Part shown: piece by piece, positions 4,242-14,699 of the stretch
Layout: every line of letters begins with the position of its first letter
Position numbering within the stretch: position 1 is the first letter of the stretch
Assembly (NCBI RefSeq): GCF_014641655.1
Contig: NZ_BMID01000001.1
Span: forward strand, 1,478,427-1,542,426
Length of the DNA: 64,000 nt
Reading direction: 5' to 3'
Origin: Pseudoblastomonas marina
GTDB lineage: Bacteria; Pseudomonadota; Alphaproteobacteria; Sphingomonadales; Sphingomonadaceae
Notes under the pieces: generated by a model
The model's database searches: none
Told to the model about the DNA's origin: nothing
What the model saw: the letters and a program-made list of their open reading frames with translations, nothing else
Translations under genes and position numbers: made by a program

Positions 4242-5138
4242 ATGACGATTCACCTGCCGACCCTGCGCCAGCTGCAATATCTCGTCGCCCTGCACGAGCA
4301 CGGCCATTTCGGCCGCGCGGCCGATGCCTGCTCGGTCTCGCAGTCGACGCTGTCGGCGGGCCTGCGCGATCTCGAGACCGCGCTCGAGGTGACGCTGGTC
4401 GAACGCACGCGGCGCTCGACCCGCTTCACCCCGCTCGGCGAGCAGATCGTCGCCAAGGCACATCGCGTGCTGCGCGAGGCGGAGGAACTGTCCGATCTCG
4501 TCCAGGCCAGCGGCAAGCCGCTGTCGGGGCAGATCCACATGAGCGTGATTCCCACGATCGCGCCGTTCCTGTTGCCACGCATGCTCCCGCGCCTACGCCG
4601 CGAACGCCCCGAGCTCAGCCTGTTCCTGCGCGAGGAAACCAGCGCCGACGCGATCGAATCGCTCCATCACGGGCGGGCCGATTGCGTGCTGCTCGCGCTC
4701 CCCTACCCCACCGGCGAGACCGAGCAGGAGATCATCGAGCTCGACGCGCTCTACGTCGCCTTCCCCGGCGACGATCCGCGCGAGCCGCCCGAGATCATCA
4801 AGCCCGAATTCATCGACGAGGGCCGGTTGCTGCTGCTCGAGGACGGCCACTGTCTCAAGGACCACGCGCTGGCCGCCTGCAACCGCCCAGAACTGCGCGC
4901 CTCGGCGACGATGATCGGCACCAGCCTGCACACGCTGGTGCAGATGGTCGACAACGGTCTCGGCGTCACGATGCTGCCCGAAATGGCGCTCGATGCGGGG
5001 ATCCTCGAAGGCACCAGCGTGATCGCGCGCCCGCTCAAGTCGGACACTCCCAACCGCGAAATCGCACTGGTCTGGCGCAAGGGTTCGCCGCGGGGCGACG
5101 AATTCAGGCTGCTGGCCGAGGAATTGCGCGCGGGCTGA
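4242..5138 (+). CDS. oxyR: hydrogen peroxide-responsive LysR regulator OxyR
   Basis: A 298-residue LysR-type regulator. The helix-turn-helix occupies residues 1-60 (LRQLQYLVALHEHGHFGRAA, SQSTLSAGLRDLE) and the inducer domain about 90-298. Cys204 and Cys213 lie in EDGHCLKDHALAAC with the nine-residue offset of the peroxide-sensing Cys199/Cys208 pair of E. coli OxyR, which supports OxyR over a generic LysR call. It follows rnd on the same strand and no catalase or peroxiredoxin gene is adjacent, so its targets are elsewhere. Confidence 0.92.
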   Translation: MTIHLPTLRQLQYLVALHEHGHFGRAADACSVSQSTLSAGLRDLETALEVTLVERTRRSTRFTPLGEQIVAKAHRVLREAEELSDLVQASGKPLSGQIHMSVIPTIAPFLLPRMLPRLRRERPELSLFLREETSADAIESLHHGRADCVLLALPYPTGETEQEIIELDALYVAFPGDDPREPPEIIKPEFIDEGRLLLLEDGHCLKDHALAACNRPELRASATMIGTSLHTLVQMVDNGLGVTMLPEMALDAGILEGTSVIARPLKSDTPNREIALVWRKGSPRGDEFRLLAEELRAG

Positions 5139-5169
5139 ACGACTGCAGCTTTCGCCGCTATGCCCTCGA

Positions 5170-5207
5170 GAAGCGAACCGACCGCTAACGACCCGATTTC
5201 GGACGTG
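5170..5207 (+). repeat. dispersed repeat, partial copy A (tail)
   Basis: Matches the 3' part of the repeat found complete at 7371-7465. It reads AACCGACCGCTAACGACCCG followed by an ATTTCGGACGT end, against ATTGCGGAC in that copy. It begins about 30 bp after the oxyR stop. Confidence 0.6.
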
Positions 5208-5449
5208 TTCTTTCGGGCTTAAATCAGGCTAAATGAATAGAAAACGCGCCCATTCTGAAAGGGTTGGCATTGCTTGCATGCCGAGCACCATCTCCGGATG
5301 GGGGTCGCCCTATGGGCTGCGTTTTCATGGTCCAAGCCCTATGGGCGAAAGCCAACTGGCCTGGAGAGGGACTGGGAACCTTCGTCACACTGACGATTTG
5401 GGTGATAGCTATCAGTCGCTTTGCCCATCATCGAAGCGCCTGACTTCGG

Positions 5450-5506
5450 CTTCCCACCTATGTTTGACCGATTTTCCGGCGGAGCGACGTGCCAAGAACG
5501 GATTGG
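5450..5506 (+). repeat. dispersed repeat, degenerate copy D
   Basis: A diverged version of the head and core of the repeat: CTTCCCACCTATG near 5450, then GAGCGACGTGCCAAGAACGG, compared with TAGCGATGTGCCAGGAGCGG in the better copies. A few substitutions separate it from copies B and C. Homology is likely but not proven. Confidence 0.4.
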
Positions 5507-5667
5507 AAACCGATGATTGGGTGGGATCCCGAAAGATTGCCGATCGCGACTAATTTCATCCCGCCATGATGTCAGTTCATCTATAAGCGAGACCGAACGG
5601 ATGGCGGTTCGGCTCCCAATTTAGCATGTGCCCCGCTAGCACCCTCCCAACGAACTCTTCTGGCACC

Positions 5668-6078
5668 ATGATGACCAACATTCTGATAGTCGAAGATGAA
5701 TTCCTGATCGCATTGGAAATGGAAGAGGTCGTTCGCGATCTCGGGCATGTCTGCGTAGGCGTCGCCGATAATCGGGAGGCGGCATTGGCATTGGCGAGCG
5801 ATGCGGTGGACGTTGCCCTTATAGACGTAAATCTCGCCGATGGCGCCACAGGCCCAATGATCGGGGCGACCCTAGCCAATGACTACGGCATCCACGTTGT
5901 CTTCATCACTGCCAATCCCAGCCAGCTTGGGGAAGGAGTGGAAGGGACTCTCGGTGCGGTGGAGAAGCCGGTCGACTTAGAAGCCCTCTCGGAAGTTCTG
6001 GATTTTGTGATCGCCTTGGATCGCGGGCACTCCAAGCCTAGTCTGCCGGAGAGGCTCCGATTGTTCCGAATGGTTTAG
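5668..6078 (+). CDS. single-domain response regulator
   Basis: A 136-residue stand-alone receiver domain with all key residues: Glu9 and Asp10 in the acidic pocket, phosphoacceptor Asp53 (ALIDVNL), Thr81 (VFITAN) and Lys100 (VEKPV). There is no output domain, so signalling would go through protein contacts or phosphotransfer, as in CpdR- or DivK-like regulators. Two adjacent ATGs (5668, 5671) are possible and no strong ribosome site is visible. Its stop overlaps by 4 bp the end of the convergent histidine kinase gene, the obvious candidate partner. Composition is less GC-rich than the flanking core genes. Confidence 0.85.
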   Translation: MMTNILIVEDEFLIALEMEEVVRDLGHVCVGVADNREAALALASDAVDVALIDVNLADGATGPMIGATLANDYGIHVVFITANPSQLGEGVEGTLGAVEKPVDLEALSEVLDFVIALDRGHSKPSLPERLRLFRMV

Positions 6079-7154
6079 GCGTTCTCAATCAAACGATTGC
6101 GATTAAAAACCATTGAAATTTCCAGACCGTGTTCGGTCCAACGCCTCTCATAACTACCGCCCAGTTGCTGGCTTATCGCAAGATCGATCAGTCGCGTGCC
6201 GAACCCAGAGAGCGGCTCTTCTAACGTGCCCCCCTTTCCGCTGGTTTCTTTCCACTCCAGACGAATTTCATCCTCGACCTCCACAAGTTCGAGGCGAACC
6301 TTTCCGGCGGATGTCGATAGAGCCCCGTACTTCATCGCGTTGGTTGCAAGTTCGTGGAAAATTAGCGCGACGGGAGTCGCTGACTTGCTGCCGATCACGG
6401 TGTCGCCCCCGAGGACGGAGATGCGTCCTTCGGAGAAGGCCGGATAAGCCTCGAAGATCGTTTCTAGCAAATCCGACAACGTCACTACGCCGAGACTGGG
6501 CCGAGATTTTTCGGAATGCGGACGCACGATTTCGTGAGCACGTCCGAGGGCCTTGATGCGTCCGAGAAGTTCGCTGGCGTGCTCACCGAATGCATCTCTC
6601 GCTCGCGCCGTCAGACTGATCAGGCTCGATATGATCGCGAAGATGTTCTTGATCCGGTGGCTGAGCTCCTGACTAAGGATCTCATTCTCCAGTGCCGCGC
6701 GCTTCTGGTCTTCGATATCGGTACATGTACCGATCCAGCGCTGAATGATGCCGTCGGTACCGATGATCGGATAGGCACGTCCGAGCATCCAGCGATATTC
6801 ACCGGTATGATGCCGCAAACGATATTCGACTTCGTAGGGCTCGCCAGTTTCCAGACTGTGATTCCATTTTGCCCAAGCTTTGGGTTGGTCCTCTTCGTGG
6901 AACATTCCTGCCCAACCCTCGCCGTCGGTCGAGCCGACCGACACGCCAGTGAATTCATACCAGCGTGCATTGTAATAGTCGTGGGAGCCGTCGGGCAGAG
7001 TTGACCAGACCAACTGTGGCATGGTGTCTGCAAGGGCATGGAAGGCATCGCTAGCAGATTGAAGCGCATGCTCTTCACCAAGAGGAAGTTCAGCAGTGAG
7101 ATCGGCGGGGTCGCGCTTCGCGAGCCGAAATGCGCTGATGGTTTCGGCATTCAT
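6075..7154 (-). CDS. PAS-domain HWE-family sensor histidine kinase
   Basis: A 359-residue soluble kinase with no membrane segment or signal peptide. A PAS domain spans about 40-148 (LVWSTLPDGSHDYYNARWYEFTG), ending in a PAC-like EYRWMLGRAYPI. The phosphorylated His166 lies in LSHRIKNIFAIISSL. The ATPase region has His267 (HELATNA) and a W301-K-E303 pair, which define the HWE subfamily common in alphaproteobacteria and often tied to light, redox or general stress signals. ATG at 7154 is preferred over a TTG two codons upstream. Convergent with and overlapping the single-domain regulator, so the two probably form one module. The sensed signal is unknown. Confidence 0.88.
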   Translation of the reverse strand: MNAETISAFRLAKRDPADLTAELPLGEEHALQSASDAFHALADTMPQLVWSTLPDGSHDYYNARWYEFTGVSVGSTDGEGWAGMFHEEDQPKAWAKWNHSLETGEPYEVEYRLRHHTGEYRWMLGRAYPIIGTDGIIQRWIGTCTDIEDQKRAALENEILSQELSHRIKNIFAIISSLISLTARARDAFGEHASELLGRIKALGRAHEIVRPHSEKSRPSLGVVTLSDLLETIFEAYPAFSEGRISVLGGDTVIGSKSATPVALIFHELATNAMKYGALSTSAGKVRLELVEVEDEIRLEWKETSGKGGTLEEPLSGFGTRLIDLAISQQLGGSYERRWTEHGLEISMVFNRNRLIENA

Positions 7155-7644
7155 CTGCAATAATCTTTCTAAACCCTAATTTCCCCTATTATTGCAACCG
7201 CCGTTCCTTCCGTCGAGGGAAGATTTCGATTCAGGAGCGGATTTTGCCCGACAGGTTTCGCGTAAGTTGAGACCAGCAAACCTCGCACTTGCCCCATATA
7301 TCTCGAAGAAAACCCAGCTCGAGAACGACACGATTTCCTGAAGTCTCAAGACCGGAGGGTTTGTCTTAGTGAATGTCCGCCTTCCACCCATTTTGCGACG
7401 CGGACACCGAGCTAGCGATGTGCCAGGAGCGGACCGACCGAAAACGACCCGATTGCGGACTGTCCGGCTTGGGCTGAATTTCCCTAGAAATTGCCATGCT
7501 GCCAATGGCTCGACATCGCGCTTGCCGGTTCCGAATCCGATAAGCGCCATCGCTATTTCTGAGGTCAACGCGTGGGGGAAGCGTTTAAAGGACCCAGATC
7601 TTCTGATGCGCCGACGTTGAGTTCCATTCCCCAAAGGATAGCCC
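7155..7644. other. 490-bp non-coding stretch between kinase and ATP-grasp gene
   Basis: It holds the upstream regions of the divergent kinase and ATP-grasp genes and the most complete dispersed repeat copy (7371-7465). A small frame at 7369-7620 starts inside the repeat and gives an Arg-rich product with no recognisable feature, so it is not called. The part near the kinase (7155-7200) is AT-rich, as expected for a promoter, but no clear -35/-10 pair was identified. Confidence 0.6.
7371..7465 (+). repeat. dispersed repeat, most complete copy B
   Basis: Three parts can be seen: a head GAATGTCCGCCTTCCACCCA, a core beginning CCGAGCTAGCGATGTGCCAG, and a tail ending GATTGCGGAC. The 34 bases at 7407-7440 are identical to 9726-9759 in the same orientation. 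With copy C it brackets the ATP-grasp/LLM gene pair. Confidence 0.85.
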
Positions 7645-8556
7645 ATGCCGGATTTGGCCCTGTTTTACGACCATGCCGAATGGCTCATACCTTTGCAGCG
7701 AGTGCTCGATGCGAGGGGTGTCGATTATGTCGGTATCGATGTCGCGGGTCATTGCTTTGATCCTGCCCACATAGCTCCGCCGGCGCCGATCATTTTCAAT
7801 CGCATCTCTATGTCGAGTTTCAAGCGAACGGCGGACCATCCCATTTTCTATGCCGACGCATTGCTTGGAGCGTGGGAGCGAGCGGGAGCGAGGATCATCA
7901 ATGGTGGCGAAGCTTTCGCGATCGACCATAACAAAGCGCGGCAGCTCGAAATTATCGCAAGCCTAGGCCTGAAGGCCCCGGATACCCGCGTCGTCCGCCG
8001 CCGCGAGGACATGGCCGCCGCTGCGCAGACAATCGGCTTCCCGCTACTCGTCAAGGGTAATATCGGCGGCGCAGGGGCGGGCATAGTTCGCTTCGACAGC
8101 GCTTCGGAACTCAAGGCAGCTGCCCTGCCCGACAGCATCGACAAGGTCTGGCTCGTCCAAGGCTACCATACGCCGCAAGATGGCCACATCATTCGCTTCG
8201 AATTCATTGGCGAGACGTTTGTCTATGCCATCGCAGTGGACGGCGGCGGACAATTCGACCTTTGTCCTGCCGATGCCTGTGTCAGCACGCCTGGGAAGCC
8301 GGTCGTGACGATGACAAAGTTCGAGCCTTCGGAAGAGCAGATCGAAGCCGCCCGGTCGCTAGTGCGCGCCGCTGGCATCGATGTAGGGGGCTGCGAGGCT
8401 CTGATTGACCAGGCAACTGGCGAGCTCATTTTCTATGACATCAACGCGTTTTCGAACTTCGCGGCCAACGCGGTAGAACTCCTTGGGTTCGATCCTCATG
8501 AGCAGTTGGCGGATATGCTCGAGGCCGAGATCACCGTGCTGAAGGAGACCGCGTAG
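7645..8556 (+). CDS. RimK-type ATP-grasp ligase of unknown substrate
   Basis: A 303-residue protein. Residues 1-95 form a pre-ATP-grasp domain and about 96-290 the ATP-grasp fold. HNKARQLEIIASLGLKAPDT starts the fold, Lys137 with a Gly-rich loop (VKGNIGGAGAG) binds ATP, and Asp265-Ile-Asn267 (FYDINAFSNF) supplies metal ligands where RimK has E-x-N. Such enzymes join a carboxylate to an amine through an acyl phosphate. AAAGGAT sits before the ATG. The stop overlaps the GTG start of the flavin monooxygenase (TAGTG), so the two are translationally coupled. Lower G+C than neighbouring core genes. Substrate and product cannot be deduced; a natural-product or amino-acid-conjugate role is inference. 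Confidence 0.85.
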   Translation: MPDLALFYDHAEWLIPLQRVLDARGVDYVGIDVAGHCFDPAHIAPPAPIIFNRISMSSFKRTADHPIFYADALLGAWERAGARIINGGEAFAIDHNKARQLEIIASLGLKAPDTRVVRRREDMAAAAQTIGFPLLVKGNIGGAGAGIVRFDSASELKAAALPDSIDKVWLVQGYHTPQDGHIIRFEFIGETFVYAIAVDGGGQFDLCPADACVSTPGKPVVTMTKFEPSEEQIEAARSLVRAAGIDVGGCEALIDQATGELIFYDINAFSNFAANAVELLGFDPHEQLADMLEAEITVLKETA

Positions 8557-9575
8557 TGCGCTATGGATATTGGATGCCGGTTTTCGGAGGCTGGCTGCGC
8601 AACGTCGAAGACGAAGGGATGGAAGCGAGCTTCGATTATGTGAAGCGCCTCGCCATCAATGCAGAACGCATCGGCTTCGATCTGACACTGATTGCCGAGC
8701 TTTACCTTAACGACATCAAGGGGGTGGATGCGCCTGCACTTGATGCCTGGTCGACTGCTGCAGCTCTCGCCGCGCTCACCGAACGACAGGAGCTGATGGT
8801 GGCAGTGCGGCCCAATTTTCATCAGCCGGGCCCCTTCGCCAAGACCTCTGCCAATATCGACCGCATTGCCAATGGGCGACTGTCGCTCAACGTTGTGTCC
8901 AGCTGGTGGGCGCGCGAGGCAGAAATGTTCGGACTGGACTTCGACCAGCACGACGACCGCTATGCGCGCACGTCGGAATGGATCGATGTCGTGGAGGGGC
9001 TATGGAGCGGGGAACCCTTTTCCTACGACGGTGACATCTATTCGACGAACGAAGCCCGGGTCGTTCCTTCCCCCGTGCGCAAGCCGCCGCTCTATGCGGG
9101 CGGAGAGAGCGAGGCAGCCAAGTCGCTCATCGCCGAAAAGTGCGACGCTTACGTCATGCATGGGGATGACCCGGACGTGGTCGCATCAAAGATCGCCGAC
9201 ATGGCGGAGCGGCGCGTAACGGCTGAGCGCGAGCCGCTATCATTCGGAATGGCGGGTTTCGTCATCGTTCGAGACAGCGAAGCGGAAGCGCAGGCTGAGC
9301 TCGATCGGATACTCGAAATGAAAGATGTCCCGCCCGGCTACGACAATTTCGATCAATGGCTGGCTGGGACCGAGCTCGAGCGCGAGTTGAAAATCCGGGA
9401 ATACGCGGTGTCCAATCGCGGCCTGCGTCCAAACCTTATCGGCACTCCCGAGCAGGTGCGCCAACGCATCGCGGATTTCGAAGGTGCCGGCGTAGATCTT
9501 CTATTGCTGCAATTTAGTCCGCAATTTGAGGAGATGGAGCGCTTCTCTGTCCAGGTGATGCGGCACACTGAATGA
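8556..9575 (+). CDS. LLM-class flavin-dependent monooxygenase (SsuD/SfnG-like)
   Basis: A 339-residue luciferase-like TIM-barrel protein resembling FMNH2-dependent alkanesulfonate (SsuD) or dimethylsulfone (SfnG) monooxygenases. Recognisable segments are VAVRPNFHQPGPFAK, NGRLSLNVVSSWWAREAEMF, the HDDRYARTSEWIDVV stretch and PPLYAGGESEAAKSL. These enzymes use reduced flavin from a separate reductase and O2 to oxygenate or cleave C-S or related bonds. No flavin reductase, ssu transporter or sulfur regulator is adjacent, so a sulfonate role is doubtful. The GTG start overlaps the ATP-grasp stop, suggesting successive steps of one pathway. Confidence 0.85.
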   Translation: MRYGYWMPVFGGWLRNVEDEGMEASFDYVKRLAINAERIGFDLTLIAELYLNDIKGVDAPALDAWSTAAALAALTERQELMVAVRPNFHQPGPFAKTSANIDRIANGRLSLNVVSSWWAREAEMFGLDFDQHDDRYARTSEWIDVVEGLWSGEPFSYDGDIYSTNEARVVPSPVRKPPLYAGGESEAAKSLIAEKCDAYVMHGDDPDVVASKIADMAERRVTAEREPLSFGMAGFVIVRDSEAEAQAELDRILEMKDVPPGYDNFDQWLAGTELERELKIREYAVSNRGLRPNLIGTPEQVRQRIADFEGAGVDLLLLQFSPQFEEMERFSVQVMRHTE

Positions 9576-9689
9576 TGGCCAGCTGATCACACAGACTGGC
9601 CTGCAGCGATTCTGGATAGTGGCATTCTATGCCCTCCCATGTTGGGACTAATTCAGCCGGGCCCTAAGGCGACATTTCTTTTCGCATTC

Positions 9690-9783
9690 GCAGGTCAGCT
9701 TTCGACCTGCTTGGCGACGCTTTCGCCGAGCTAGCGATGTGCCAGGAGCGGACCGACCGCTAACGAACCGGTTGCGGACGTCC
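9690..9783 (+). repeat. dispersed repeat, copy C, with hairpin at its left edge
   Basis: Bases 9726-9759 are identical to 34 bases of copy B, followed by the tail CTAACGAACCGGTTGCGGAC. GCGACGC just left of the core is shared too. At 9690-9710 lies a hairpin (GCAGGTC/GACCTGC, 7-bp arms, 7-nt loop) not seen in copy B. The repeat ends 24 bp before the CDF gene and so forms part of its leader. Confidence 0.85.
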
Positions 9784-9806
9784 ACTGTCGCAACCACATA
9801 GCCAGC

Positions 9807-10430
9807 ATGTCGGCCGATTGCTGTTCCGCCAAGTCCACCGAACTTGAAAAGCTTGCCCTCCAGCGCGAGCAGCGGCGCGTGCTCGTGGTCGTGCTCGCCA
9901 TCAACGCCGTGATGTTCGTGCTCGAATTCGGCGCCGGCGTGATCGCCGGGTCCACCGCGCTTATGGCCGATGCCTCCGACATGCTCGGCGATGCGGTGGT
10001 TTACGCGGTTAGCATCTATGCCCTCGCGCGCTCGGAGCGTTGGAAGGCGGGGGCAGCGATGCTCAAGGGGGTGGTGATTCTATGCCTCGGGCTCGGGATC
10101 GCGGTCAACGTGGCACTCAAGATCGAGAGCGGCGTGCCGCCGTCCTCGACGCTGATGGTGGCGTTCGGCACCTTGGCGCTCGCCGCCAACCTCGTGTGTT
10201 TCCGCCTCCTCACCCGATTCCGGCACCAGGACGTCAACATGGCGAGCACTTGGGAATGCTCGAGGAACGACCTGATCAATAACTGCGGCGTGCTGCTCGC
10301 CGCCGCGCTTGTCTGGTGGTTCGCCTCGCCTTGGCCCGACATCGCGATCGGTGGTGTGATGGCGTTGATATTCCTTCGCTCCGCCGTTCGCGTGATCGCC
10401 GACGCTGCACCGCAATTGCGCGCGACCTGA
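9807..10430 (+). CDS. short cation diffusion facilitator family transporter
   Basis: A 207-residue membrane protein holding only the six-helix CDF transmembrane domain; the usual cytoplasmic C-terminal domain of about 90 residues is absent. Metal-site signatures are ADASDMLGDAVVYAVS in TM2 and SRNDLINNCGVLLAA in TM5, as in a family of short CDF-like proteins in proteobacteria. The N terminus carries a Cys pair (MSADCCSAKS) that could touch metal. Zn2+, Co2+ or Cd2+ export is the family role; the substrate here is unknown. Its upstream leader contains repeat copy C. Confidence 0.8.
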   Translation: MSADCCSAKSTELEKLALQREQRRVLVVVLAINAVMFVLEFGAGVIAGSTALMADASDMLGDAVVYAVSIYALARSERWKAGAAMLKGVVILCLGLGIAVNVALKIESGVPPSSTLMVAFGTLALAANLVCFRLLTRFRHQDVNMASTWECSRNDLINNCGVLLAAALVWWFASPWPDIAIGGVMALIFLRSAVRVIADAAPQLRAT

Positions 10431-10679
10431 AGTCCGCTTCTCTCCCACCAGCCGCGATCAAGCGCATTTTCCTACATCGTCGCAAGCTGCCATCATGGCG
10501 GGATGGCATCGATCCACTTTCGCTGTCGGCCCTCAGCCTCGCCTCGCCTTCGCCACGCGGGCGCGGAGACGGTCGCGGCTAAGGTTACACCCGGGCCCGC
10601 AAGAACGCGCGCAAGTGACTGCAATCGCTTGGGTTTTTCGAACGGCGAAGTTTTGCTAACACCCCCGGTCGGCGGTCCA

Positions 10680-11398: not shown

Positions 11399-12724
11399 AT
11401 GACGACATCCACGCACCTCGTGCGGACACGGCGGTTCGCCCCGCTTTTCGTCACCCAATTGCTCGGCGCCTTCAACGACAATCTCTACAAGAACGCGATG
11501 GTGCTGTTCGTCGTCTACAGCATCTACAATTCCGAAAGTGCCGAGGCGAGCTTCTCCGCCCTCGCCTCGGGTATCTTCATCATCCCGTTCTTCCTCTTCT
11601 CCGCGCTCTCCGGCCAGCTTGCCGACATGCGCGACAAGGCGAAGATCATCCGCATCGTGAAGCTGTGCGAGATCGGCATCATGCTGATCGGCGGCGCCGG
11701 GCTGCTGATGGCGTGGCAGGGCATCGCGATCGACCTTTTCGCGATCCCGCTGATGCTCGCCGCGCTGTTCGCGCTCGGCATGCATTCCACCTTCTTCGGG
11801 CCGATCAAATACGCGATCCTGCCCCAGCACCTGCACAAGGAAGAAGTGCTCGCGGGTACCGGGCTGGTCGAGGCGGGGACCTATATCGCGATCCTGTTCG
11901 GCACGATCCTCGCTGGCTGGATCCCGGTCGAGGTAGCGGCAATCGCGACGATCGCGACCGCGGTGATCGGCTACGTCGCCGGGCGGCAAGTGCCCGAAGC
12001 GCCGCCGCTGATGGAACCGGAAAAGCTCGACTGGAACGTGTGGCGCGCCTCGAAAAGGCTGATCGGCGACACGCTGGTCGACAAGCGCGTGTTTCTCGCC
12101 ATCGTGGCGATCAGCTTCTTCTGGACGATCGGCACGGTGCTGTTCATCCAGTTCCCGCCGCTGGCCAAGAACGTGCTCACCGCGAGCAAGGAAGTGGCGA
12201 GCCTGTTCCTCGTGATCTTCTCGATCGGGGTCGCGATCGGATCGGTCTCGATCAACGCGCTGCTCAGGGGCAAGGTCTCGGCACGCTATTCGCCGATGTC
12301 GGTGATCGCGATGGGCGGTTTCGTGGTGATCTTCTATTTCGTCTGCCAGCTGTGGCAGCCGCTCGAAGGCGGCGCGCTGCTCGATGCCGAAGGCTTCGTC
12401 CATCAGCGCATGGCGATCCCGCTGATGCTCGCGCTGCTCGGCATCGCGGTGGCGGGCGGGATGTTCGTGGTCCCGCTCTACGCCTTCCTCACGACCTTCG
12501 TGGAAACCTCGCAGGCCGCGCGCACGATCGCCGCCAACAATATCGTCAACGCGCTGGCGATGGCGGTGGGCTCGCTGGTCGCGATCGGCCTCAGTGCGGC
12601 CGGGGTCCCGATCGTCGAGCAGGTCCTGCTGAGCGCGGCGATGTGCCTGGTCTCGGCGTGGCTCGGCGCGATCCTCTACAAGGCCGAAATCGCCGCCGAG
12701 GCGCCGCCCGCTCAGGAAATGTAG
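11399..12724 (+). CDS. MFS transporter, LplT-like (putative lysophospholipid transporter)
   Basis: A 441-residue major facilitator with about 12 hydrophobic segments. The N-terminal LLGAFNDNLYKNAMVLF and the loop FGPIKYAILPQHL match the LplT branch, which flips lysophospholipids across the inner membrane for reacylation. In many bacteria this module is fused or adjacent to an acyltransferase (Aas); here it stands alone, divergent from pgsA. The subfamily call comes from sequence character and neighbourhood, not a search. Confidence 0.75.
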   Translation: MTTSTHLVRTRRFAPLFVTQLLGAFNDNLYKNAMVLFVVYSIYNSESAEASFSALASGIFIIPFFLFSALSGQLADMRDKAKIIRIVKLCEIGIMLIGGAGLLMAWQGIAIDLFAIPLMLAALFALGMHSTFFGPIKYAILPQHLHKEEVLAGTGLVEAGTYIAILFGTILAGWIPVEVAAIATIATAVIGYVAGRQVPEAPPLMEPEKLDWNVWRASKRLIGDTLVDKRVFLAIVAISFFWTIGTVLFIQFPPLAKNVLTASKEVASLFLVIFSIGVAIGSVSINALLRGKVSARYSPMSVIAMGGFVVIFYFVCQLWQPLEGGALLDAEGFVHQRMAIPLMLALLGIAVAGGMFVVPLYAFLTTFVETSQAARTIAANNIVNALAMAVGSLVAIGLSAAGVPIVEQVLLSAAMCLVSAWLGAILYKAEIAAEAPPAQEM

Positions 12725-12906
12725 AGGAGCGTCGCGACGAAGCAGGCGACGTAGAAGTGGACGAAGGTCCGCGCATCCTGCCGCGTGATCCACGGTCGTG
12801 TGGCCGTCGTCTGCGGCGGTACCGGAATGCGAGTGACATGGCGGGGCAGCGACATCCGGAACGGGTGCCGTGCACCCTCGTCGGTAAGGACCAGTGCTCT
12901 TCTCAT
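12712..12906 (-). CDS. putative 64-residue single-TM protein
   Basis: A basic N-terminal part (RRALVLTDEGARHPFRMSLP) and a C-terminal hydrophobic helix (FVHFYVACFVATLLYIS) suggest a tail-anchored membrane protein. It overlaps by 13 bp the 3' end of the convergent LplT-like gene. No good ribosome site precedes the ATG at 12906 and the family is not recognised, so the call is tentative. Confidence 0.35.
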   Translation of the reverse strand: MRRALVLTDEGARHPFRMSLPRHVTRIPVPPQTTATRPWITRQDARTFVHFYVACFVATLLYIS

Positions 12907-12916
12907 GTCGGGGCTG

Positions 12917-12955
12917 TTAACGCTTCGGTAACCATGTGGCTCCCGCGTTAACCAT
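12917..12955. promoter_or_regulatory. possible CtrA binding sites
   Basis: TTAA-N7-GTAA at 12917-12931 (consensus TTAA-N7-TTAA) and TTAACCAT at 12948-12955, the alphaproteobacterial CtrA half-site form. They lie 70-110 bp upstream of the TPP enzyme gene and just before the small opposite-strand frame. Motif match only. Confidence 0.35.
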
Positions 12956-13025
12956 GTTTTTTCGAACTGCACAGGCTTGGGACAGTCTGCTTCGCAATTG
13001 CACCGTTCCGCCGGATCGCTAGAGC

Positions 13026-14699
13026 ATGCGTCCCATGACAGAACATTCCAAACTCGCTGGCCGCCTGTTGGTCGATTGCCTCCTCGAACAGGGCTGCGAC
13101 CGGATCTTCACCGTCCCCGGCGAAAGCTTTCTCGCCGTGCTCGACGGGCTCCACGATGTGCCCGCGATCGACACCGTGGTGTGCCGCCAGGAAGGCGGCG
13201 CAGCGTTCATGGCCTGCGCCGACGGTGCAATGACCGGGCGACCGGGCGTGTGCTTCGTGACCCGCGGCCCGGGCGCGACCAATGCCAGCATCGGGGTCCA
13301 TGTCGCACACCAGGATTCACAGCCGATGATCCTGTTCGTCGGCGACGTCGATCGCGGGATGAAGGACCGCGAGGGCTTTCAGGAGCTCGATTTCCAGGCC
13401 GTGTTCGGACCGATGTGCAAATGGGCGGCGCGGATCGACGATGCGGCGCGCATTCCCGAATATGTCGCGCGTGCATGGTCGGTCGCGATCGCCGGACGCC
13501 CCGGCCCCGTCGTGCTCGCCCTCCCCGAAGACATGCTGCGCGAGGAAATCGAAGGCATCGCCCCCCGTCCGGCCGTGGTTCGCCCCGCGCAGGCCGCCTG
13601 CCCCGACGCGATGGGTGCGCTGATGGCTATGCTCGGCGACGCGGTCGCGCCGATCGCGATCGTCGGCGGCGCCGGCTGGAATGCCAAGGCGCGCGATCAC
13701 TTCACCGCTTTCGCCGAAGCGGTCGGGCTGCCCGTTGCGGGGGCCTTCCGCCGGCAGGACGCAGTGCCCAATTCGAGCAGCGTGTGGGCGGGCAATCTCG
13801 GCTACGGCCCCAATCCCAAGCTGATCGAGCGGGTCCGCGCAGCAGATCTCGTGATCGCGGTCGGGGCGCGACTCGGCGAGGCGACGACCGACGGCTACGA
13901 ACTTCTCACCCCCGACCATCCCGACCAGACGCTGGTCCATGTCCACCCCGATCCGGAAGAACTCGGCCGGGTCTACCGGGCCGACCTCGCGATCTGTGCC
14001 GACATGGCGGAGTTTTCCGAAAGCGCCGCGCTGTTGGCCGACGAGGTGATCGATTTCGACGCCGGGGCCGAGGCGCATCGCGAGTGGATCGACTGGTCCA
14101 CTCCGCAGGACAGCGGGACGAGCGGGCTCGACCTCGCGCTCGCCGTCAAAACGATGCGCGAGCTGCTGCCTGCCGATGCGATCATCTGCAACGGGGCCGG
14201 CAATTTCTCGGGCTGGTGGCACCGCTACTGGCCGTATGAAGGCTACCCCTCACAGCTTGCTCCGACCGCGGGTGCGATGGGGTACGGCGTCCCCGCCGCC
14301 GTCGCCGCCGCGCGGCGTTTCCCCGATCGCAGCGTGGTCGCGGTGGCGGGCGATGGCGATTTCCTGATGAACGGACAGGAACTCGCGACCGCCGCCGCGC
14401 TCGATCTCGACCTGCTCGTGCTCGTGATCGACAACGGGGTCTACGGCACCATCCGCATGCACCAGGAACGCGACTACCCCGCGCGGGTCTCGGGTACCAC
14501 GCTCGCCAACCCCGACTTCGCCAGGTTCGGCGAGGCCTTCGGCGCATGGACCGCGACCGCGGACGACAATGCCGGATTCGATGCGGCGATCAAGGAAGCG
14601 GCTGGGCGCTCTGGCCTACGACTGATCCATTGTCGCACCGAAATCGAGAACCTCGCCGCCTCGGGTTTGAAGCTCAGCACGCTGCGCAGCCGGGCATAG
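13026..14699 (+). CDS. thiamine diphosphate-dependent enzyme, acetolactate synthase large-subunit-like
   Basis: A 557-residue three-domain TPP enzyme. The PYR domain has the activating Glu56 in VVCRQEGGAA, the central domain occupies about 200-330, and the PP domain carries the GDGDF...DN cofactor motif (VAGDGDFLMNGQELATAA to VIDNGVYGTI). The fold suits acetolactate synthase or related carboligases and decarboxylases. No small regulatory subunit (ilvN) or ilvC is adjacent, so this is more likely a paralogue than the ilvB of branched-chain synthesis. A second start nine bases downstream is possible; neither has a strong ribosome site. A terminator follows at once. Confidence 0.85.
   Translation: MRPMTEHSKLAGRLLVDCLLEQGCDRIFTVPGESFLAVLDGLHDVPAIDTVVCRQEGGAAFMACADGAMTGRPGVCFVTRGPGATNASIGVHVAHQDSQPMILFVGDVDRGMKDREGFQELDFQAVFGPMCKWAARIDDAARIPEYVARAWSVAIAGRPGPVVLALPEDMLREEIEGIAPRPAVVRPAQAACPDAMGALMAMLGDAVAPIAIVGGAGWNAKARDHFTAFAEAVGLPVAGAFRRQDAVPNSSSVWAGNLGYGPNPKLIERVRAADLVIAVGARLGEATTDGYELLTPDHPDQTLVHVHPDPEELGRVYRADLAICADMAEFSESAALLADEVIDFDAGAEAHREWIDWSTPQDSGTSGLDLALAVKTMRELLPADAIICNGAGNFSGWWHRYWPYEGYPSQLAPTAGAMGYGVPAAVAAARRFPDRSVVAVAGDGDFLMNGQELATAAALDLDLLVLVIDNGVYGTIRMHQERDYPARVSGTTLANPDFARFGEAFGAWTATADDNAGFDAAIKEAAGRSGLRLIHCRTEIENLAASGLKLSTLRSRA

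Follow-up and report, generated by a model that had tools for sequence, protein, structure and literature searches.

A conserved two-gene unit of a RimK-like ATP-grasp ligase and an LLM-class flavin monooxygenase, with a likely role in sulfur scavenging, in Pseudoblastomonas marina and its relatives

Two overlapping genes in the window (the whole 64,000-nucleotide stretch of the Pseudoblastomonas marina genome analyzed here) encode an ATP-grasp ligase and a flavin-dependent monooxygenase, and together constitute a two-gene unit that is fixed and uncharacterized in dozens of soil and plant bacteria. It is near certain that the ligase and monooxygenase are functionally coupled, and sulfur scavenging is the likely role of the pair. 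The more specific reading that we prefer, and to which we give an even chance, is that the pair forms a short sulfur-scavenging pathway in which an imported amino-acid-like organosulfur compound is ligated and then oxygenated. The uptake of an amino-acid-like substrate and the link to sulfur are supported by genome context, and we infer the amide bond, the order of ligation before oxidation and the substrate itself. An earlier note on this DNA had described an uncharacterized pathway of a ligase and an oxygenase, and this description stands: Pfam and NCBIfam give it no name, no sulfur pathway is known to contain the pair, and it was not described in the open-access papers searched for an ATP-grasp protein together with an LLM enzyme, a sulfonate monooxygenase or cysteate.

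The ligase gene (positions 7645–8556, forward strand, 303 aa) runs from an ATG at 7645 to a TAG at 8554–8556, and the monooxygenase gene (8556–9575, forward strand, 339 aa) from a GTG at 8556–8558 to a TGA at 9573–9575. As the earlier note had read, the stop and start codons overlap in TAGTG (8554–8558, forward strand), with one shared base. Each gene is preceded by a Shine-Dalgarno-like sequence on the same strand, AAAGGA (7633–7638) for the ligase and AAGGAG (8542–8547), which is within the ligase gene, for the monooxygenase. In each of the 14 copies measured, the two genes overlap by either 1 or 4 bases. This arrangement supports translational coupling at most, and the fixed stoichiometry that had been read into it goes too far. 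No riboswitch was found near the pair with Rfam, and scans for promoters and terminators around it gave results at about chance level.

The assignment of the ligase is based on a RimK-like ATP-grasp domain (PF08443, 28 bits against a Pfam cut-off of 21) and on a predicted model (mean pLDDT 87) whose nearest folds in the PDB are ArgX, LysX, and RimK (TM-scores of approximately 0.7–0.85, the highest, 0.85, being to ArgX). These two results place the protein in the RimK-like ATP-grasp superfamily. Membership of the RimK or LysX/ArgX families is not indicated, as its scores are far below the NCBIfam equivalog cut-offs (TIGR00768, 50 against 143; TIGR02144, 35 against 276; PRK10446, 26 against 331). 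In addition to the fold, it shares the ATP-grasp lysines and an Asp-x-Asn metal motif with LysX/ArgX and RimK; however, it is 15–20% identical to them, has its own motif (FDLCPADxC) and was seen with no LysW or ribosomal S6 context. ArgX, LysX, and RimK form amides between an amino acid and an amine or peptide. The bond had earlier been left as amide or ester and, because the predicted fold is closest to LysX/ArgX/RimK, an amide is more likely to be formed and an ester is less likely. A RiPP/graspetide pathway was considered and rejected, as a precursor was not seen and the ligase is nearer to ArgX/LysX than to PsnB.

In the alignment of the paired ligases Lys97, in a KARQ motif (codon at 7933–7935, forward strand), and Lys137 (8053–8055, forward strand) are invariant, and from knowledge of the family we take Lys97 to be the likely ATP-grasp nucleotide-binding lysine and Lys137 the likely second one. 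The sequence DINAFSNF (residues 265–272; 8437–8460, forward strand) corresponds to the metal-binding E-x-N motif of RimK, with Asp replacing Glu. Its residues D265, N267, S270, and N271 are invariant in the paired ligases, as are the predicted nucleotide- and metal-binding residues. The clade is defined by the motif FDLCPADAC (residues 204–212; 8254–8280, forward strand), which is present as FDLCPADxC in 93/93 ligases of the paired clade and in the form FxLCPA[DE]xC in homologs from Spirosoma and Pediococcus. In the predicted model this motif is in or beside a loop of low pLDDT, and it may contact the substrate. Four relatives from one genus (L034–L037, 41–43% identity) have no monooxygenase partner, and the two of these that were inspected, L034 and L035, have lost FDLCPADxC; the motif may therefore mark the paired activity.

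The monooxygenase has a Bac_luciferase domain (PF00296, 209 bits) which, together with the FMN-phosphate residues of an H-x-x-R-Y motif and a Ser, identifies it as an LLM-class (group C, two-component) FMN monooxygenase. The motif (H132-x-x-R135-Y136; 8949–8963, forward strand) aligns with H123/R126/Y127 of MsuD (PMC8234197), and H132, R135, Y136, and S185 are invariant in all 51 loci compared. Sulfonate binding in MsuD involves W195, R225, and an RGGA loop (R296, A299) (PMC8234197), which are replaced here by H202, A233, and NRGLRP, with the alignment of the loop uncertain by 1–2 residues. H202-G-D204 (9159–9167, forward strand) is at the place of W195, and the N287-R-G-L-R-P292 loop (9414–9431, forward strand) is at that of the RGGA loop of MsuD and SsuD; H202, A233, N287, R288, and R291 are themselves invariant in 51/51 loci. 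The likeness to SsuD and MsuD is in the fold family and the FMN-binding residues but does not extend to the sulfonate-binding Trp, Arg, and RGGA loop and, for this reason, a simple sulfonate substrate is not supported.

Among structures in the PDB, the closest match to the monooxygenase is 3rao (luciferase-like monooxygenase, 405 bits), which is presumably from B. cereus, followed by 8vw6 ("alkanesulfonate monooxygenase," 359 bits). Both are of the same subfamily as the monooxygenase of the pair, and NRGLRP is kept in 3rao. The closest functionally characterized homolog is the dimethylsulfone monooxygenase SfnG (8t0u, 168 bits), followed by MsuD (129 bits), SsuD (100 bits), and RutA (65 bits). 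No NCBIfam equivalog reached its cut-off for either the ligase or the monooxygenase. The best match of the latter, TIGR04021 (SfnG), scored 232 bits against a cut-off of 383, and identity as SfnG was rejected. Identity as SsuD/MsuD was also rejected, based on the TIGR03565 score (167 bits against 518) and the absence of the sulfonate-binding residues, and the NtaA/DmoA family TIGR03860 scored 111 bits against 280. The description "SsuD/SfnG-like" in the earlier note is accurate at the level of the superfamily but not below it, given those missing residues and an SfnG score far under its cut-off. Unlike SfnG, the monooxygenase is almost always found with a ligase, and no sfn or msu genes were seen nearby. 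As is the trait of its class, it is predicted to receive FMNH2 from a separate reductase. A scan of viral contigs with the monooxygenase gave no match.

The pair is conserved in relatives, which disposes of the suggestion that the pairing might be unique to this strain. Across 299 genomes of the order, 20 copies of the ligase were found. The 14 ligases with at least ~49% identity, the window copy included, all have a monooxygenase gene directly downstream on the same strand, and the four copies at 41–43% identity mentioned above have none. A general tie of distant (~30% identity) ligases to LLM genes was rejected, as no LLM gene was present in 22 neighborhoods. Since the distant ligases lack the partner, the pairing defines a subfamily. 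In the best 80 named ligase loci from GTDB species genomes, which are top matches and biased to close relatives, the monooxygenase is directly downstream in 79. These loci are from Sphingomonas, Novosphingobium, Sphingorhabdus, Brevundimonas, Caulobacter, and related MAGs, with two, L071 and L122, oddly named and maybe mislabeled. The exception, L080, has the ligase alone, and the monooxygenase of one locus counted among the 79, L126 from a Sphingomonas MAG, is frameshifted. After this frameshifted gene, L126 also encodes another RimK-like ATP-grasp protein that has an extended C-terminus (~11980–13345). A search with a monooxygenase profile found 16 copies in 15 of 150 genomes of the family, with the ligase directly upstream in all 16. 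The co-occurrence that the earlier note had proposed to check is, on both of these counts, conserved.

Pairwise identities of the ligases and of the monooxygenases across 51 loci are correlated (r = 0.77, with 0 of 2000 permutations as high), the ligases averaging 63% and the monooxygenases 78% pairwise identity. As judged from these alignments, the correlated divergence shows joint inheritance and not contact, and shared species history contributes to it. For these comparisons the open reading frames in relatives were called by simple rules and not by a gene finder; the whole-genome searches covered Pseudomonadota, and other phyla were sampled via plasmid records. Two copies of the pair in Sphingorhabdus soli (L070 and L098) have near-identical monooxygenase starts and are both cut by a contig end at the same residue, which suggests that the pair was recently duplicated or that the assembly broke within a repeat.

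The window copy is on a strain-variable segment (~5153–10451), as determined by comparison with a same-genus genome and by its GC content, which is 0.55–0.60 over most of its length vs. ~0.64 around it. At the same site the other genome has ~2 kb of unrelated DNA with a gene of ~1.5 kb that is serine-hydrolase-like by eye. The segment is bounded by a LysR regulator and a PgsA-like gene, and also encodes a PRK13435-type response regulator, an HWE-type histidine kinase and a short cation-efflux protein. An 86-nt imperfect direct repeat flanks the pair on its left (7375–7460, forward strand) and right (9694–9779, forward strand), the two being 83% identical, and the repeat core has three occurrences in the window, all intergenic and around the segment, the third being at 5169–5215. 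The earlier note had seen neither a flavin reductase nor a sulfonate transporter nearby. Both observations were borne out, as the sole match to PF01613 (Flavin_Reduct) in the genome is ~1 Mb from the pair and, as far as PF09084 represents such transporters, the NMT1/SsuA-type binding proteins have no match genome-wide. The genome also has no MetQ-family protein; it has three SDF-family symporters elsewhere and one other LLM protein. The window pair may therefore rely on genes elsewhere for its carrier and its reductase.

In a set of 93 neighborhoods (~86 distinct, as some genomes are present under two identifiers), the pair itself is the sole thing conserved throughout and no further gene family recurs in all surroundings. 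Those neighbors that do recur suggest that an organosulfur amino acid is taken up. In 25/93 loci the pair is next to a MetN-MetI-MetQ importer, in two arrangements: directly downstream in 22 loci, in most of which MetN overlaps the stop of the monooxygenase gene, and directly upstream in L092, L094, and L107, where MetQ ends ~60–90 bases before the ligase. MetQ was identified with PF03180 (288 bits), and the best NCBIfam match of the pair-linked MetN is TIGR02314 (318 bits, under the cut-off of 500). The MetN of L118 (11919–12650) has 244 aa, compared to ~322 aa at other loci, matches the first 239 of 343 model positions and, from its sequence, seems to have no C-terminal regulatory domain. 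In five separate loci (L104, L110, L122, L134, and L136) a symporter gene with best matches to GltP and DctA lies just after the monooxygenase gene or overlaps it, and 63 of the 93 loci, the window included, have neither importer type. As the 22 downstream cases are mostly from related Sphingomonas, the independent associations are few, namely the two arrangements of the importer and one or more of the symporter. Single cases are a TauE-like protein (named by eye) that precedes the pair in L089 and a TauD-like dioxygenase (243 bits vs. a cut-off of 313) that follows it in L092. A dedicated deacylase is not among the recurring neighbors, nor are peptide precursor, carrier protein, export or resistance genes, and CuyA/CuyB are in none of the sphingomonad loci.

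Pairings of ATP-grasp and LLM genes were also found further afield. Two Deinococcus plasmids, one from D. peraridilitoris and one from D. deserti, encode an ortholog of the window monooxygenase (56% identity) directly after a 426-residue ATP-grasp protein that has no significant similarity to the window ligase. In D. deserti (plasmid 3; L166, 4876–9023) the two genes belong to an apparent operon, cuyA-cuyB-ATP-grasp-LLM, in which the overlapping upstream genes encode D-cysteate sulfo-lyase (CuyA, 535 bits against a cut-off of 450) and cysteate racemase (CuyB, 271 bits against 190); this is the one organism in which cuyA and cuyB were found with an ATP-grasp/LLM pair. The only other close plasmid relative of the Deinococcus ATP-grasp protein is that of the haloarchaeon Natrononativus amylolyticus (L190, 5935–8609), whose gene is directly before one for an LLM enzyme of the NtaA/DmoA family (541 bits, cut-off 280). 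A Spirosoma plasmid encodes a ligase homolog (40% identity) and, after it, two amino-acid permeases and an LLM enzyme most similar to SsuD, and a Pediococcus plasmid a ligase homolog (29% identity) after a GltP/DctA-like symporter, without an LLM enzyme. The Deinococcus, Natrononativus, and Spirosoma cases thus indicate that different ATP-grasp and LLM families have been juxtaposed more than once, often with amino-acid carriers. The absence of a sulfur link in the earlier note holds for the window copy only, and relatives with MetN-MetI-MetQ and Deinococcus with cysteate enzymes speak against it elsewhere; these two contexts make a sulfur amino-acid role likely.

In two known pathways for sulfur amino acids the amine is acetylated, the C–S bond is cleaved by an LLM enzyme and the acyl group is then removed (PMC9706529, PMC10863075). 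YxeL acetylates S-(2-succino)cysteine, which is then cleaved by the LLM enzyme YxeK (PMC9706529), and the substrate of CmoJ is an N-acetyl-S-alkylcysteine sulfoxide (PMC10863075); SfnG, MsuD, and SsuD also cleave C–S bonds (PMC10863075). By analogy, we propose that an ATP-grasp ligase here takes the place of the acetyltransferase of the YxeL/YxeK and CmoJ pathways. The pair resembles YxeL-YxeK-YxeP of B. subtilis and CmoO/CmoJ in that an amine-modifying enzyme (here predicted) accompanies an LLM-class FMN monooxygenase, and the likeness to yxe includes an amino-acid importer in the same locus. Those systems, however, employ an N-acetyltransferase and a dedicated deacetylase, whereas here there is an ATP-grasp ligase and no recurring deacylase. 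The LLM enzyme also differs, scoring 232 bits with SfnG vs. 111 bits with NtaA/DmoA, unlike YxeK and CmoJ, which we take to be of the NtaA/DmoA group. A gene set of the YxeL/YxeK/YxeP type is not present, as the annotated window neighbors (4242–10430) include no N-acetyltransferase, NtaA/DmoA monooxygenase or deacetylase, and none of these recurs in relatives.

In the proposed pathway the ligase would spend ATP on making an amide bond to the substrate, the simplest case being that the substrate's amino group is coupled to an amino acid or another carboxylate. The monooxygenase, with FMNH2 supplied by a reductase encoded elsewhere, would then insert oxygen beside the sulfur of the conjugate, breaking the C–S bond to give a carbonyl and release sulfur in a usable form, as sulfite, sulfinate or thiol. 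Removal of the attached group would come later, perhaps by an ordinary peptidase; if that group is an amino acid general peptidases would suffice, which would explain why no deacylase recurs. Candidate substrates would be S-alkylcysteine or methionine sulfone/sulfoxide, or a cysteate-type sulfonate. From the importers, the substrate would be similar to methionine or to a dicarboxylic amino acid; the D. deserti operon suggests one that leads to cysteate or resembles it, and the kinship of the monooxygenase to SfnG perhaps a sulfone. Points against this pathway are the 63 loci with neither importer type, the lack of MetQ in the window genome, the Sphingomonas bias of the downstream importers, the missing deacylase and sulfonate-binding residues, and the finding of CuyA/CuyB with such a pair in D. 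deserti only.

The same two enzymes might act in the reverse order, the monooxygenase first oxidizing an imported organosulfur compound and the ligase then conjugating the product for export, detoxification or further use. Gene order does not fix reaction order, free compounds are the substrates of SfnG and SsuD, and the cysteate-degrading enzymes of the D. deserti operon could act after oxidation. We nevertheless think this order rather unlikely, based on the fact that the amine is modified before the LLM step in the two closest worked-out amino-acid cases (YxeL/YxeK and CmoJ), and that PMC8234197 describes monooxygenases, reductases, and regulators in the sfn and msu loci and mentions no ligase. 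A biosynthetic role is another explanation, with the ligase producing a dipeptide-like amide that the monooxygenase would N- or S-oxidize to a small bioactive or signaling compound. Natural-product clusters contain both ATP-grasp ligases and LLM enzymes, and the patchy distribution of the pair (15/150 family genomes) in changing genomic contexts is in keeping with such a role. However, it is an unlikely one considering that the recurring extras are importers and that no peptide precursor, carrier protein, export or resistance gene recurs.

It is more doubtful still that the pair scavenges nitrogen or carbon, the LLM enzyme hydroxylating a C–N or C–H position of an imported amino-acid derivative with sulfur uninvolved. 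The LLM enzymes NtaA, EDTA monooxygenase, and RutA act on nitrogen compounds, and the MetQ-like and GltP-like carriers are also able to import sulfur-free amino acids, but the nearest characterized homologs use sulfur compounds (SfnG, MsuD, and SsuD at 168, 129, and 100 bits vs. 65 bits for RutA), and the cysteate enzymes of D. deserti and the TauE-like protein of L089 also count against this role. That the genes are chance neighbors or a strain oddity with no functional link might be supposed from the position of the window copy on a variable, low-GC segment. Chance adjacency was rejected, as it is contradicted by the conserved pairing (79/80 and 16/16) in variable surroundings, the conserved overlap, the correlated divergence and the independent ATP-grasp/LLM pairings in Deinococcus, Spirosoma, and an archaeon, and we consider the probability of this explanation to be negligible.

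The pairings outside the sphingomonads raise a broader idea, which we hold tentatively and think somewhat improbable: that ATP-grasp conjugation is a general, repeatedly evolved way of priming amino-acid-like organosulfur compounds for C–S cleavage by LLM enzymes. It would combine at least two unrelated ATP-grasp families with at least three LLM families (SfnG-like, SsuD-like, and NtaA/DmoA) in Alphaproteobacteria, Deinococcus, Bacteroidota, and haloarchaea, and would represent an undescribed class of sulfur acquisition. The two-gene unit is small enough for direct testing, and a close relative of the monooxygenase already has a solved structure (3rao). If the proposed ligate-then-oxygenate pathway is correct, it would aid the annotation of orphan LLM enzymes, give a testable substrate class and add a ligase-based variant to the acetyltransferase-based C–S cleavage pathways. 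Sphingomonads, caulobacters, deinococci, and others would then reach organic sulfur by an ATP-costly route that standard annotation has missed under names such as "RimK-like," "carboxylate-amine ligase," "LLM class oxidoreductase," and "hypothetical."
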